Positions 12,238 through 37,008 of a stretch of 64,000 nucleotides of DNA are shown one piece after another. The DNA is from Rubritalea squalenifaciens DSM 18772 (lineage in GTDB: Bacteria; Verrucomicrobiota; Verrucomicrobiia; Verrucomicrobiales; Akkermansiaceae). The notes under the pieces were generated by a model. That model saw only the letters and a list, made by a program, of their open reading frames with translations, did not search any database and was not told the origin of the DNA. Positions within the stretch are counted from its first letter, which is position 1. Each line of letters starts with the position of its first letter. The translations under genes and the position numbers were made by a program. The DNA lies in the NCBI RefSeq assembly GCF_900141815.1, contig NZ_FQYR01000005.1, forward strand, positions 434,001 to 498,000, in the 5' to 3' direction.

Positions 12238-12561
12238 GGATGAGTCGTGTTTGGAAATCTTTATTCGTCGTCAGCCACCTGAGTTGCGACTGCAGAGGAG
12301 GGCGTAGCGGGAAAATGGAAAGAGGGCAAGTGTTGCTTTTGACTGCATTCCGTGAATTGTGACATCTTAGAGCAAAATGGCGCTAAAACATGACAAGCAA
12401 CCGTTAGCTGTGTGGGCGGAAGTGGCTAAGATGCTTGCGTGCTCTTGAGGTAAGTAGCACATACGAAACGGGATCTGTTGTCCGTGGTGTCATGCCTCGC
12501 TGGTATTCAGGAAGTGCCAGCGGGGCTAAAATTTTCAGCCAACAAGTCTGACAGGCAAGAC
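12238..12561. other. Intergenic region between lysC and the feo operon end
   Basis: No coding frame with protein-like features was found. The part near 12238-12400 should hold the lysC promoter, but no clear -35/-10 pair or lysine riboswitch could be recognised. Near 12495-12525 there is an imperfect hairpin (CCTCGCTGG / CCAGCGGGG, one G-T pair) and near 12544-12563 a small one (AAGTCT / AGACTT); neither has a T-run, so their role as terminator of the feo transcript is uncertain. Confidence 0.4.
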
Positions 12562-12753
12562 TTAGGATTGTTGCTTGGTGACAGTCTTTTGCTTCCGCTT
12601 GGCGAGCATCTTTTTCTTGGCCTTGTCAGACATGAGATTGCATCCGCAGCTGCCGCAGCAGGAAGAGCGCTTGAGGCTCACGTATGCCCGCCAGATGACA
12701 ATGATGACAGCGAGCGCTACGATGATCAGGGCAATGGTGGTCTGTGATGGCAC
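12562..12753 (-). CDS. FeoB-associated Cys-rich membrane protein
   Basis: A 63-residue protein starting at GTG (12753). One hydrophobic helix (about residues 6-21) is followed by a short basic stretch and a cysteine cluster CCGSCGC (about 32-38), then a Lys-rich tail. This layout (single TM, then a Cys-rich knot) matches the small FeoB-associated Cys-rich membrane protein family, and the gene lies 65 bp downstream of feoB on the same strand. A role with FeoB in ferrous iron transport is inferred from family context. No in-frame ATG is available near the start. Confidence 0.75.
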   Translation of the reverse strand: MPSQTTIALIIVALAVIIVIWRAYVSLKRSSCCGSCGCNLMSDKAKKKMLAKRKQKTVTKQQS

Positions 12754-32909: not shown

Positions 32910-34196
32910 TTAGACGACGGCTTTGAATTTGGCGTCGATGTAGGCGAGGACGAGAGCTTCGAGTTCTTCGTTCTCGAGACGCTCGACCACCTCCACGGAG
33001 AATCCGCGGGCAATGAGCTGTCGGGCGACCTTTGGCTGAACACCACGGGCCTTCAGGTAGAAGATCTCCTCGTCGCTGATGGCGGCGGCGGTGGAGCCGT
33101 GTGAGCACTTGACCTGGTCGGCATTGATCTGCAGTCCTGGCATGGAGTTTGCCTCGGTGGTGTCGTCCATGAGGAGGTTGCGGCAGGTCTGGTAGGCATC
33201 CGTGTAGTGAGCGCCTTCTTCTACGGAGATGAGTCCGGAGAACACGGTCTTGGCATTGCCGTAGAGGGTGTTCTTGTATAGGAGGTCACTGTAGGTGTGC
33301 GCAGCGGAGTGGTCCTGGAAGGTGCGCTGGTCGTACTTCTGCTCGCCGGCCGGGATAGAGATGGAGAGCATGTCTGAGTGTGCGCCCGCACCACTGAGGG
33401 TGGAGAGGGACTCGTTGCGTGCCCAGATGGCGCCGACATTGAGGATGAATCCTTTGGCGTTAGCGTCTTTCTCTACCTTGGTGTTGTTGATCTGGATGAT
33501 CTTGGAGGCAAGGTTGAGATCCTGGATGGCGGAGTAGTTGAGATTCGAGCCGGTGCCGGCGATGAGGTCATTCATCGCGATGCAGAGGGCTGGCTTGTCG
33601 CCTGCGGTCTTGAAGTAGTCTACCACGGTGACTTTAGCGTTGTCTTCGGTAACCACGAGAGTGTGCGGGAAAATAGCCGCGTTCTCGCCAGAGACGATGT
33701 GGTACACCTCGATCGGGAGGTCGACTTCCACGTTTTTAGGGACGTAGACGAAGAGGCCATTGCTAAGGTGTGCCTTGTGAAGGGCGGCGTACTTGGCGGA
33801 GCCAAGCTTGGTGTCACCCTGCATGAAGTATTTTTCAACGAGCTCTGCGTGCTCGTTCAGTGCGTCCGCAAGTGGGAGGCAGATCACGCCTTCCGGAAGT
33901 TCAGCCTCGGCGTGAACGAGCTCGTCGTTTGCGAAGATGAACTGGGCGGCGGTGTTCTCCAGGCCAGAGATCTCCATGTCGATATCGTCAGAGTCCACGA
34001 AACCGGCCGGGGCGAATGCGTCGAAATCAAGTTGCTTCAGATCACCAAAGCGCCAAGTTTCATCCGTACGAGATGGTTTCGGCAGCGCGCTGTAAGTCTC
34101 CCAAGCCTTAGCCTGAGCGTCGGTGAACCATGCGGGAGCTCCTTCGAGTGTGCTTGGTCGGGAGTTGGTGATGGATTGAATTTCCAATGTTTCCAT
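32910..34196 (-). CDS. sufD: Fe-S cluster assembly scaffold protein SufD
   Basis: From ATG 34196, 428 residues. SufD forms the SufBC2D scaffold on which Fe-S clusters are built. Family features: an N-terminal helical part (WFTDAQAKAWETYSALPKPSRTDETWRFGDL), a central right-handed beta-helix, and the C-terminal block KCSHGSTAAAISDEEIFYLKARGVQPKVARQLIARGF. It is the last suf gene and is separated from sufB by the inserted GxxExxY unit; removing that unit would leave a gap of only 49 bp. The cysteine desulfurase gene sufS and sufE/U are not in this operon. Confidence 0.94.
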   Translation of the reverse strand: METLEIQSITNSRPSTLEGAPAWFTDAQAKAWETYSALPKPSRTDETWRFGDLKQLDFDAFAPAGFVDSDDIDMEISGLENTAAQFIFANDELVHAEAELPEGVICLPLADALNEHAELVEKYFMQGDTKLGSAKYAALHKAHLSNGLFVYVPKNVEVDLPIEVYHIVSGENAAIFPHTLVVTEDNAKVTVVDYFKTAGDKPALCIAMNDLIAGTGSNLNYSAIQDLNLASKIIQINNTKVEKDANAKGFILNVGAIWARNESLSTLSGAGAHSDMLSISIPAGEQKYDQRTFQDHSAAHTYSDLLYKNTLYGNAKTVFSGLISVEEGAHYTDAYQTCRNLLMDDTTEANSMPGLQINADQVKCSHGSTAAAISDEEIFYLKARGVQPKVARQLIARGFSVEVVERLENEELEALVLAYIDAKFKAVV

Positions 34197-34222
34197 TAGT
34201 CTTTTGGTTGAGCTGTTTTCTG

Positions 34223-34251
34223 CCACAGATTATTTAGATTTGAGACAGATT
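34223..34251 (+). repeat. Left 29-bp inverted repeat of the GxxExxY unit
   Basis: Begins CCACAGATT and ends GACAGATT. It is the exact reverse complement of 34663-34691. It touches the stop codon of the internal gene. Confidence 0.95.
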
Positions 34252-34656
34252 TTATTGTTTCGGGTAATTGTTCAGTTTGGAGACTCTTTTAAACTCCAGG
34301 GATTGATTTTTGAAATTGATGAGAATTCCGACTTCAAGTCCTGTGATAGCCAGATAGCTTAAGATTTGAGAGTAATGAGCCCCATTCAGGCCGTCTACAG
34401 ACTTGGCTTCAACGATGACGTTGTTGGCGACAAGTAGGTCAGGGATTAATTTGCCAACTTCATTCCCACGGTAATGGACGGGGAACTCGGTTTGCTGGGA
34501 GAATGGGATGTTCTGGTGTTCGAATTCGATGCAGAGTGCGTTTTCGTAGATTTTCTCGTTGAGCCCACCTTTGAGTTCGCGGTGTACCGTCATGGCAGCA
34601 CCGATGATTTGCTTGGTCAGGGCTTGATGGGGGTATTCTTTGTCAGGAAAATCCAT
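34252..34656 (-). CDS. GxxExxY family protein
   Basis: A 134-residue protein of the GxxExxY family (PF13366), with the defining motif G-L-N-E-K-I-Y in LKGGLNEKIYENAL, the conserved HxELG-like opening (AMTVHRELKGG) and nuclease-like strands LIPDLLVANNVIVEAKSV (the D...ExK pattern resembles PD-(D/E)XK endonucleases) and GILINFKNQSLEFKRV. The family is common in PVC bacteria and Bacteroidetes; its function is not established, and a nuclease role is inference from the D-ExK pattern. It is co-directional with suf and likely transcribed by read-through from sufB. It is carried by the inverted-repeat unit annotated above. Confidence 0.9.
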   Translation of the reverse strand: MDFPDKEYPHQALTKQIIGAAMTVHRELKGGLNEKIYENALCIEFEHQNIPFSQQTEFPVHYRGNEVGKLIPDLLVANNVIVEAKSVDGLNGAHYSQILSYLAITGLEVGILINFKNQSLEFKRVSKLNNYPKQ

Positions 34657-34662
34657 CTACAC

Positions 34663-34691
34663 AATCTGTCTCAAATCTAAATAATCTGTGG
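34663..34691 (-). repeat. Right 29-bp inverted repeat of the GxxExxY unit
   Basis: Exact reverse complement of 34223-34251, ending CTGTGG on the plus strand. It lies 6 bp upstream of the internal gene's ATG, so it occupies the leader and may carry its promoter or ribosome-binding region. Confidence 0.95.
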
Positions 34692-34714
34692 TTAAAAGAA
34701 TCGTTTGGGTTGGG

Positions 34715-36154
34715 CTAGCCGACTGAGCCTTCCATTTCGAGGTCGATGAGGCGCTTGAGTTCGACGGAGTATTCCATAGGGAACTGGGATACGAGGTCGT
34801 TGACGAAGCCGTTCACGGCGAGGGACATGGCTGCCGCCTCAGAGATGCCGCGCTGCTGCATGTAGAAGAGCATTTCCTCGGATACCTGGGATACGGAGGC
34901 CTCGTGCTGGGTAACGTGCTGGTTACCGCGGACGGTGATGGCTGGGTAGGTATCGGTACGGGAGTTGCTGTTGATAAGCAGGGCGTCACACTCGGTGTTG
35001 TTCTTGCAGCCTTTGAGGTGCTTGGGAATGTGAACTTGTCCACGGTAGGTGGAGATGCCTTCACCCACGGAGATGGACTTGGATACCACGTTGGAGGTGG
35101 TGTTGTCCGCCGCGTGGATCATCTTGGCGCCGGTGTCCTGGTGCTGGCCGTTGTTCGCGAGAGCGATGGAAACCACTTCGCCGCGAGCACCTTCGCCCTT
35201 CATGACGACGCCTGGGTACTTCATGGTCAGGCGGGAGCCGATGTTACAGTCGATCCAGCGGATCTCTGCGTCTTCATGGGCAAGACCACGCTTGGTCACG
35301 AGGTTAAACACGTTGGAGGACCAGTTCTGTACGGTCACGTACTGGATCTTGGCGCCTTTCATGGCGACGAGTTCCACGACAGCGGAGTGCAGGGTAGAGG
35401 TCTCGAACTGAGGTGCGGTGCAGCCTTCCATGTACATGACCTCGGAACCTTCGTCGGCAATGATGAGAGTACGCTCGAACTGACCGAAGTTCTCGGAGTT
35501 GATACGGAAGTAGGCCTGTAGGGGCTGCTTCACTTTCACGCCCTTAGGTACGTAGATGAAGGAGCCGCCGGAGAATACTGCGGAGTTCAGTGCGGAGAAC
35601 TTGTTGTCACCGGTCGGAATGACCTTGCCAAACCATGGGCGGAAGATTTCCTCGTGCTCGCGGAGGCCTTCGGTGGAGTTTACGAAGATGACGCCTTCCT
35701 TCTCGAGCTCTTCCTTCACGTTGGAGTAGGCAGCCTCTGAGTCGAACTGGGCTTCTACGCCAGCGAGGAAAGCACGCTCCTGCTCAGGGATGCCGAGGCG
35801 TTCGAAGGTTTCCTTCACGTCGTCAGGTACATCGTCCCAGCTGCGTTTCGGGCGCTCACCGTCGGAGAGGTAGTAGCGGATTTTGTCGAAATCGATGTTG
35901 TTGAGGTCGTCGGTAGCCCAGTGAGTAGGCATCGGCTTGGATTCAAACACGTCGAGTGCCTTGTGGCGGAACGCGCGGATCCAGTCCTTTTCCTTCTTAA
36001 CGTCTGAAATGTAGTCGATGGTCTTGGCGTTCAGACCATAGCCGGCATCGTACTTGTGCCGCTCAGGGAAGCGGAAGTCACCCTTGGCGCGGTCGATGGA
36101 GATCGCCTCGTGGGTTTCCTGGTCGATAGTGGCTGTGTTGTCTTGGAGATCCAT
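34715..36154 (-). CDS. sufB: Fe-S cluster assembly scaffold protein SufB
   Basis: A 479-residue scaffold subunit of SufBC2D. Typical blocks are [34 protein letters not shown] (conserved Cys region), [71 protein letters not shown] and the C-terminal [18 protein letters not shown]. Length is normal. It follows sufC with a 104-bp gap that contains one copy of a dispersed hairpin repeat. Confidence 0.97.
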
Positions 36155-36174
36155 ATGATGGTTAATGGTAAATC

Positions 36175-36211
36175 GTTATTGGTTAACGGGGGCTTGCGGC
36201 TCTGGGGAGCC
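36175..36211 (+). repeat. Dispersed hairpin repeat, copy A
   Basis: GTTATTGGTTAAC... ending in the perfect hairpin GGCTCTGGGGAGCC (36198-36211). Two more copies are at 57927-57964 and 57984-58021. This copy sits in the sufC-sufB intergenic gap. Confidence 0.75.
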
Positions 36212-36258
36212 GGACGATTTAGAAGAAGGGAGTGATTCTCTCTTCTTGATGCTGCTGC

Positions 36259-37008
36259 TTAGGCAGTCACTGGCTTGGTGAGGTGGTCGTAGCCTTTTTC
36301 CTCGAGTTCGAGGGCGAGCTCTGGGCCACCGGTCTTGATGATCTTACCGTCGAACATCACGTGTACTACGTCTGGCTTGATGTAGTTGAGAAGGCGCTGG
36401 TAGTGGGTGATGACGAGGAAGCCGCGCTCTTCGGAGCGGAGCATGTTGACGCCTTTGGAAACGATCTTGAGCGCATCGATATCGAGGCCGGAATCGGTCT
36501 CATCGAGGATGCAGTACTTAGGATCGAGCATCATCATCTGGAGAATTTCGTTACGCTTCTTCTCACCGCCAGAGAAGCCTTCGTTGACGGCGCGGGAAGT
36601 GAACTTGCGGTCCATTTCCAGTGCGTCCATCTTCGCGTAGAGGTCCTTGTAGTAGGCTACTGCGTCGATTTCTTCACCTTCTGGAAGGCGAGCGGAGAGG
36701 GCAGCGCGGATGAAGTTGGCGTTGGATACACCTGGGATTTCCATTGGGTACTGGAAGGCGAGGAAGACACCCGCGCGGGAGCGCTCGTCTACTTCCATCT
36801 CAAGGAGGTCTTCACCGTCCATGGTGATGGAACCACCAGTGACTTCGTAGTCTTCGTGACCAGCGATGATCTTGGAAAGGGTGGACTTACCGGAACCGTT
36901 TGGACCCATGATGGCGTGCACCTGGCCCTTAGGGATTTCCAGGTCAAGGCCCTTGATGATCTCAGTGTCACCGATCTTGGCGTGAAGGTCTTTGATGATG
37001 ATGGACAT
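36259..37008 (-). CDS. sufC: Fe-S cluster assembly ATPase SufC
   Basis: A 249-residue ABC-type ATPase that powers the SufBCD scaffold. Walker A is GPNGSGKST (about 35-43), the ABC signature FSGGEKKR (about 145-152), Walker [12 protein letters not shown]; the [11 protein letters not shown] segment is typical of SufC. It is soluble, with no membrane segment. It is the second gene of the operon, 68 bp after the Fur-like regulator gene. Confidence 0.97.

Follow-up and report, generated by a model that had tools for sequence, protein, structure and literature searches.

The described system closest to the locus analyzed here is that of RAYT enzymes and REP repeats. According to the available parts of the two publications, the RAYT gene lies between two inverted repeats, its stop codon is often located beside a repeat, further repeats are scattered outside genes, and the enzyme and the repeat coevolve; in some genomes the repeats are concentrated within about 200 kb (PMC2817692, PMC3116915). 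Doublets make up 61% of the REPs in the genome of the second paper, as given in the part available (PMC3116915). Intergenic direct repeats of the TAACTGA type are described, in the accessible portion of the source, from Beggiatoaceae, Cyanobacteria, and Bacteroidetes (PMC4679880), and a MITE in hupL of Ca. Thiomargarita nelsonii was tied by its authors, in the portion of the article available, to a PD-(D/E)XK_2 gene (PMC4853749). A literature search, with preprints and most subscription journals outside its reach, found no link of the GxxExxY protein family to flanking repeats, and no function is stated in the available portions of open-access papers naming the family.

A repeat-flanked gene in the suf operon

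The window, i.e., the whole 64,000-nucleotide stretch of the Rubritalea squalenifaciens genome that was analyzed, contains a 469-bp unit with a GxxExxY gene between sufB and sufD (Table 1). A preliminary description of this DNA had reported 29/29 inverted repeats around exactly one GxxExxY gene, and this was borne out: the two repeats (arms) are 29 nt long, 100% complementary, and spaced by 411 nt, and the single GxxExxY gene between them ends in a stop codon that abuts one arm, while 6 bp separate its ATG from the other. None of 100 shuffled windows contained the 29-mer, even when three mismatches were allowed. The gene is co-directional with sufB and sufD, and the coordinates agree with the claim that the unit interrupts this gene pair, since the gap of 518 bp would be 49 bp without the unit.

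Table 1. Features of the repeat-flanked unit and its neighbors (window coordinates)
Feature	Position	Strand	Remarks
5' arm	34663..34691	-	sense strand CCACAGATTATTTAGATTTGAGACAGATT; three CAGATT-like units, spaced 9 and 11 bp
Last full unit plus degenerate fourth unit (CAGATTGTGTAGATG), ATG start inside	34654..34668	-	one mismatch to CAGATTNNNYAGATT
GxxExxY gene, 134 aa, predicted PD-(D/E)XK nuclease	34252..34656	-	motif residues E34, D73, E83, K85
3' arm, exact inverted copy of 5' arm	34223..34251	-	directly after stop codon
sufB, operon neighbor upstream (context, outside element)	34715..36154	-	relatives 70-94% protein identity
sufD, downstream neighbor (context)	32910..34196	-	ATG 34196; longer GTG start of the ORF list falls within 3' arm

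On the sense strand the arm reads CCACAGATT-ATT-TAGATT-TGAGA-CAGATT and thus consists of three CAGATT-like units; a fourth, degenerate unit (CAGATT-GTG-TAGATG) reaches into the start codon. No inverted repeat of at least 12 nt was found inside the window arm, which starts with CCACAGATT and is not a palindromic REP with a GTAG or CGTC head. The arms of the other loci were judged to be non-palindromic by eye only.

The position is not one shared by all close relatives: none of the 28 other genomes having a sufB match contained a TIGR04256 (GxxExxY) match within 20 kb of it, so that among the genomes searched the suf position is special to R. squalenifaciens. The readable sufB-sufD gaps of relatives contained no GxxExxY gene and were too diverged for base-exact ends; the comparison had no junction in L048, L062, L065, L068, and L059, met a contig edge in L045, and had an unreliable sufD start in L058, L063, and L070. 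Because of this divergence, no exact empty site was obtained at the sufB-sufD junctions, and the idea of a recent insertion proved by an empty site was rejected. In three relatives the gaps (L051, L046, and L044 of genomes G002, G005, and G010) contained gene-less AT-rich tandem-unit sequence, as judged by eye, and in G002 a PF05635 gene is located just upstream of sufB. Considering these three gap sequences and the PF05635 gene, the suf operon may be a place where such sequences often land. Exact arms, together with the lack of the unit in relatives, suggest that the window unit reached the suf operon fairly recently.

The GxxExxY protein

The only Pfam match of the window protein was PF13366 (E 2.5e-38, 131.5 bits; curated cut-off 22), and it also matched TIGR04256 (E 2.6e-41, 140.6 bits; curated cut-off 35). 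The G-x-x-E-x-x-Y signature is formed by G31, E34, and Y37 and the D...(E/D)-x-K pattern by D73, E83, and K85. The nuclease-like D...ExK pattern noted in the preliminary description is real: E34, D73, E83, and K85 recur as E-D-(E/D)-K in 86 of the 95 loci surveyed below, and an AlphaFold2 model (pLDDT 88.3, seven sequences) has the PD-(D/E)XK fold. The best structural match of the model was SSO0001 (4ic1; Z 9.4, rmsd 2.7, 97 residues), which we take to be a Cas4; lower-scoring matches were restriction-type folds and lambda-type exonucleases. Cas4 proteins have four cysteines for an iron-sulfur cluster. The 134-residue window protein contains one cysteine and, therefore, no such four-cysteine set. 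The likeness to SSO0001 is in the fold alone. No match to the Y1 HUH transposase profile (PF01797) was found in the window protein. As judged from the model, the GxxExxY protein is a predicted PD-(D/E)XK nuclease with an intact motif.

Arms around other genes of the family

TIGR04256 matches were present in 40 of 58 genomes, including that of the window. The survey used 91 of the 110 listed matches, without the 18 weakest ones and without G053:C3:64824. Together with loci from other phyla they yielded 95 non-redundant loci after removal of near-identical duplicates, L020 (the same as L001), and matches of fewer than 80 profile positions (including L010 and L011). An arm pair was defined as an ungapped inverted repeat with a score of at least 14 within 400 bp on each side of the conserved core.

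Inverted arm pairs were found in 59 of the 95 GxxExxY loci, versus 8 of 950 swapped-flank pairs and 10 of 1,010 mechanically defined control ORFs of 90-220 codons from the same loci; the remaining 36 loci had no ungapped pair at score 14. Direct-orientation repeats reached the same score in 19 of the 95 loci, which means that array density explains a part of the signal but not the inverted excess, the inverted orientation being three times as common. With gapped scoring, 51 of 95 loci exceeded the 1% swap threshold. The arm sequences vary from locus to locus (CCACGGAATACACGGAACACACGGAA, GACAGGATTAACAAGATT, CACGCAGAGCCGCGGAGACGCAGAG, etc.) and have a common periodicity of 9-10 nt. A CCRC or GACA start served as an anchor in 80 of 118 arms, and in these, T accounted for 49%-71% at the adjoining outer positions -3 to -5, versus a background of 21%.

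Outside the home phylum, arms were found in the single Nitrospirota locus and in two of three loci of Alphaproteobacteria. In plasmids, six of eight records were examined (arm scores 21, 19, 16, 11, 11, and 9); arms were seen in records of Bacteroides, Sphingomonas, and Bernardetia, and Treponema, a fusobacterium, and Persicobacter had weak arms or none. No GxxExxY relative was confirmed among viral contigs (viral_contigs). The two phage records with a GxxExxY match both represent one halovirus; the relative in the phage record KC292026.1 (Halogranum tailed virus 1) is located at 91528-91884. In the available part of another source, a relative is listed for an alga virus (PMC12085832).

Arm class and protein phylogeny

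Similarity of the proteins correlated with similarity of their arms (Mantel r 0.217, a value not reached in any of 999 permutations; 59 loci, kinship ignored), and when the 58 other loci were ranked by arm similarity, the nearest protein relative had a median rank of 3. By class rules set after the arms had been viewed, 49 of the 59 loci were assigned to nine arm classes and 10 stayed unlabeled. On the tree of the 59 proteins these classes required 12 changes against a shuffled mean of 32.6 (0 of 200 shuffles as low), a count that is inflated by related sequences. The classes ACAGAATT, ACAGGATT, CRCNGAG, CRCNGAT, and CACAAA clustered when taken alone (0-6 of 500 shuffles as low). Four of the nine classes showed no clear clustering singly: CRCGAAT (38/500), CACGGAA (24/500), and both two-locus classes (500/500). 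For the family as a whole, sequence comparison indicates that the repeat and the enzyme coevolve.

Gene-less arrays

The preliminary description had held that mobility would lack support if the repeat occurred only here. The 29-mer itself, with up to three mismatches, is indeed found nowhere else in its own genome (G000), but its unit class has 39 further copies: the pattern CCACAGATTN{2,4}AGATT had 41 matches in G000, two being the element's own arms and 39 gene-less, and its reversed control had none. In ten relatives this pattern gave five matches in G005, one in G010, and none in the other eight. Of the 41 own-class arrays, 38 are located within contig C2 at 290-490 kb, several of them inside longer repeated modules, so these arrays are not independent insertions. 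This region of about 200 kb (G000:C2:290000-490000, parts of which are covered by L154, L155, and L156) is densely occupied by arrays that belong to several classes and mostly share one orientation, and the parts viewed contain genes for two GNAT acetyltransferases, a member of the 2'-5' RNA ligase family, and an IS200-like Y1 transposase.

The relation between gene class and gene-less copies was also followed in other classes. Among 15 genomes, a gene with CACGAAT arms was found in G000 and G004 only, and these had 106 and 27 CACGAAT pairs, respectively, counting their own arms; there were 25 in G005, 9, 7, and 6 in three other genomes, and 0-1 in the remaining nine. CGCGAAA pairs numbered 18 in G029, whose gene at site A (see below) bears such arms, and six in the sibling genome G017; against the link, there were 15 in G005, where no such gene was found, and none in the carrier G043. 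Among 15 genomes, the ACCGGGAT class occurred only in G029 (five, two being the arms of an element) and G017 (seven, no such gene found). CACGGAA hits were numerous where no such gene was found (19 in G004, 18 in G000, and 16 in G002), and carriers had 15 (G017), 5 (G022), 1 (G005), and 1 (G011), with six in the sibling G029; outside elements, there were seven such arrays in G017 and five in G029. Thus, a simple link between gene class and gene-less copies fails for CACGGAA, and the other classes are mixed.

A generic array pattern had 930 matches in 58 genomes against 271 for the reversed control, and the flanks of the 95 loci contained 36 matches of this pattern. The median excess per Mb was 2.55 in the 40 genomes with GxxExxY genes and 0.12 in the 18 genomes without them (Mann-Whitney p 1.5e-4; Spearman 0.52 with gene number; kinship ignored in both). 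Exceptions, with no GxxExxY gene found, were G018 (47 arrays), G039 (19), and G024 (12). Among the matches listed, the arrays of G018 were mainly of the CRCTGATTTCRCTGA kind.

As a rule, a gene-less copy is a single arm. Four classes with 131 arrays in total (CACGAAT not included, and the G002 and G004 rows left out for CACGGAA) contained five inward-facing pairs within 700 bp; four enclosed a GxxExxY gene (the window, L026, L039, and L074), and the fifth, in G029, was gene-less. For CACGAAT, at least three gene-less inward pairs were seen by eye among the matches listed (G000:C2:396102/396468, G002:C107:92319/92572, and G004:C213:22965/23186). A gene-less inverted ACCGGGAT pair, 79 bp from start to start, was observed in L193 (G029:C1:1060261-1060356), and the sibling G017 has other arrays there. 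As for empty sites of gene-less arrays, the search covered five G017/G029 regions, and both flanks were recovered from the sibling for one of them, where a different array pair was present instead of an empty site.

Old sites and signs of allele replacement

At many GxxExxY loci both neighbors are shared across genera. At site A (10 loci) the proteins formed one clade versus the two outgroups used. Two loci of this site, L018 and L111, have neighbors that are about 93% identical, proteins that are 51% identical, and different arms. In tests on pairs chosen after the identities had been seen, a clade of L018 and L111 was rejected (p-AU 3.3e-5), though their neighbors group together; clades of L026/L039 (p-AU 0.153) and L024/L081 (p-AU 0.143) were not rejected. 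L111 has retained an outer CACGGAA array beyond the limits of its current CACGAAT element, in a stretch aligning with the arm region of L018, as if one element had replaced another. Some old sites thus bear signs of allele replacement. The dN/dS ratio was 0.026-0.076 in four of eight ortholog pairs, with dS of 1.2-3.0 near saturation, and the other four had no usable dS.

The preliminary description had interpreted the unit as a mobile cassette without a transposase, in whose mobility the GxxExxY protein perhaps takes part. A self-contained unit of a gene and inverted repeats lacking a transposase is indeed present; neither mobility nor a causal part of the protein in it found the same support. 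Direct repeats of at least 5 nt, as expected for target-site duplications, were present in 3 of 59 loci against 2.05 expected by chance. The term "mobile cassette" is too simple because there are no target-site duplications above chance and no exact empty site, and several other GxxExxY sites are old and shared between genera and bear signs of allele replacement.

Proposed explanation and alternatives

Our preferred reading, with a probability of about 0.55, is that the window unit belongs to a widespread two-part element composed of a GxxExxY PD-(D/E)XK nuclease and a cognate array with approximately one helical turn per unit. Two inverted copies of the array surround the gene, and arrays of the same kinds also occur gene-less elsewhere, mostly as single arms. 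The protein would bind the arrays belonging to its class, with one unit in each turn and on one face of the helix, and would cut or nick them at the T-rich outer edge; repair of the break would then place a copy of one arm or of the complete arm-gene-arm unit in an intergenic gap. Subsequently, the gene could be replaced and its arrays left behind; L111 looks like such a case, and arrays left in this way would explain the classes without a gene.

The same layout was found in a second family. Freestanding genes of PF05635 (23S rRNA IVP, a four-helix bundle) were surveyed in the same relatives (L158-L187; 27 of 30 loci used, three clipped), and inverted arms with a score of at least 14 were present in 17 of the 27 loci, versus 8 of 270 swapped pairs and 2 of 27 loci in direct orientation. 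The arm units are about 7-8 nt by eye. Examples of such genes are located in L098 at 1213-1572 and 12242-12601. The anatomy is, therefore, not tied to a single protein, a finding compatible both with convergent elements and with a passenger role of the gene. A broader proposal, which we put forward tentatively and consider rather doubtful, is that arm-gene-arm units form a general bacterial class with helically spaced arrays and at least two unrelated small proteins (GxxExxY and PF05635), in which the protein reads the array as a password and drives its copying; such a class would account for many unexplained intergenic short tandem repeats.

The passenger role, in which the arrays are spread by an IS200-like/RAYT enzyme, by a reverse transcriptase, or by slippage and conversion, and GxxExxY is cargo between arms, is an unlikely alternative. 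The unrelated PF05635 family in the same anatomy, the IS200-like Y1 gene among the arrays of the own-genome cluster, and the classes for which no matching gene was found, namely CACGGAA (G000, G002, and G004), CGCGAAA (G005), ACCGGGAT (G017), and generic arrays (G018), are consistent with it, whereas the tracking of protein clade by arm class, the threefold prevalence of inverted over direct orientation, and the presence of GxxExxY in four of the five inward-facing pairs of four classes argue against it.

The orientation of the genes bears on a further alternative. Where both predicted neighbors, judged by ORF length only, are on one strand (67 of 95 loci), the GxxExxY gene had the same direction in 60 cases and the opposite one in 7. 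For the two-part element, the 6 bp between arm and ATG in the window leave no room for a promoter outside the arm, so the gene is probably transcribed by read-through of the operon in which it resides; this would account for the sense bias. The bias would also suit an RNA-level element like the intervening sequences of 23S rRNA, with arms forming a transcript stem cut by RNase III or a similar enzyme. The window RNA was predicted to fold with paired arms into a strong stem (z -5.8), and the size and arm length are near those of the Coxiella intervening sequence (428 nt with a 28-bp stem, as given in the available part of PMC4990558). Against selection of the arms as an RNA stem, mismatches in 1,554 arm columns showed no sense-strand G-U excess (22 of the sense G-U type, 35 antisense, and 50 transversions). 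One-armed copies are common, no Rfam match was found in 33500-36500, and a stem needs no periodic units, and we consider an RNA-level element improbable. A defense or self-marking nuclease that attacks array-free DNA, with arrays as protective or guide sites and their spread incidental, is very improbable: it is in line with the fold nearest to SSO0001 and lambda-type exonucleases and with the differing alleles at shared sites, but leaves unexplained the housekeeping-operon location, the lack of a partner gene, and the intergenic gene-less arrays.

Comparison with known systems

Several described elements share single features with the GxxExxY loci. Compared with classical IS elements and MITEs, they differ in the lack of target-site duplication above chance. 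The 23S rRNA intervening sequences with S23p are similar in their size of about 430-470 nt, one small ORF, terminal inverted repeats of nearly 30 bp, and the lack of a transposase, as far as described in the available part of the source (PMC4990558); the window unit differs in being located between sufB and sufD instead of in rRNA and in encoding another protein, and the arm mismatches gave no sign of selection on an RNA stem. The TAACTGA repeats also consist of short tandem intergenic units with a scattered distribution and no known mechanism; their units are 7 nt long, nearer by eye to the arm units of PF05635, and the accessible portion of the source links no flanked gene to them (PMC4679880). 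The hupL MITE likewise represents dispersed inverted-repeat DNA associated with a PD-(D/E)XK gene; according to the available text, its nuclease belongs to PF12784, and its 19-bp inverted repeats are capped by 10-bp direct repeats, with no arrays of units (PMC4853749).

The RAYT-REP system shares more with the loci. Common traits are a stop codon beside a repeat, copies scattered outside genes, and a concentration of repeats, in some genomes, within about 200 kb. Its inverted-repeat-flanked gene has a counterpart in the window and in 59 of 95 loci, and covariation of arm class and protein is seen in the GxxExxY family. An excess of repeats in the carrier genome is present for the unit class of the window (41 matches, 0 reversed) and not for the 29-mer, and other classes are mixed or contrary. 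The differences are that GxxExxY is a predicted PD-(D/E)XK protein whereas RAYT is a Y1 transposase, that the arrays are non-palindromic and made of short units, and that gene-less copies are mostly single arms whereas REPs, as described in the available part of the source (PMC3116915), are mostly doublets (REPINs).

In our analysis, the best reading of the GxxExxY genes and their arrays is a RAYT-REP-like organization in which the enzyme is unrelated and the repeats are not palindromic. The recurrence of the layout in many bacteria, with arms that vary along with the protein and are often found gene-less at other places, points to an element of nuclease and repeats that has been overlooked. 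Tying GxxExxY to a cognate array provides a directly testable substrate for the family. If true, this reading would link orphan small nucleases with the short tandem repeats scattered in intergenic DNA, and the RAYT-REP organization would have a counterpart that differs in enzyme fold and in repeats.
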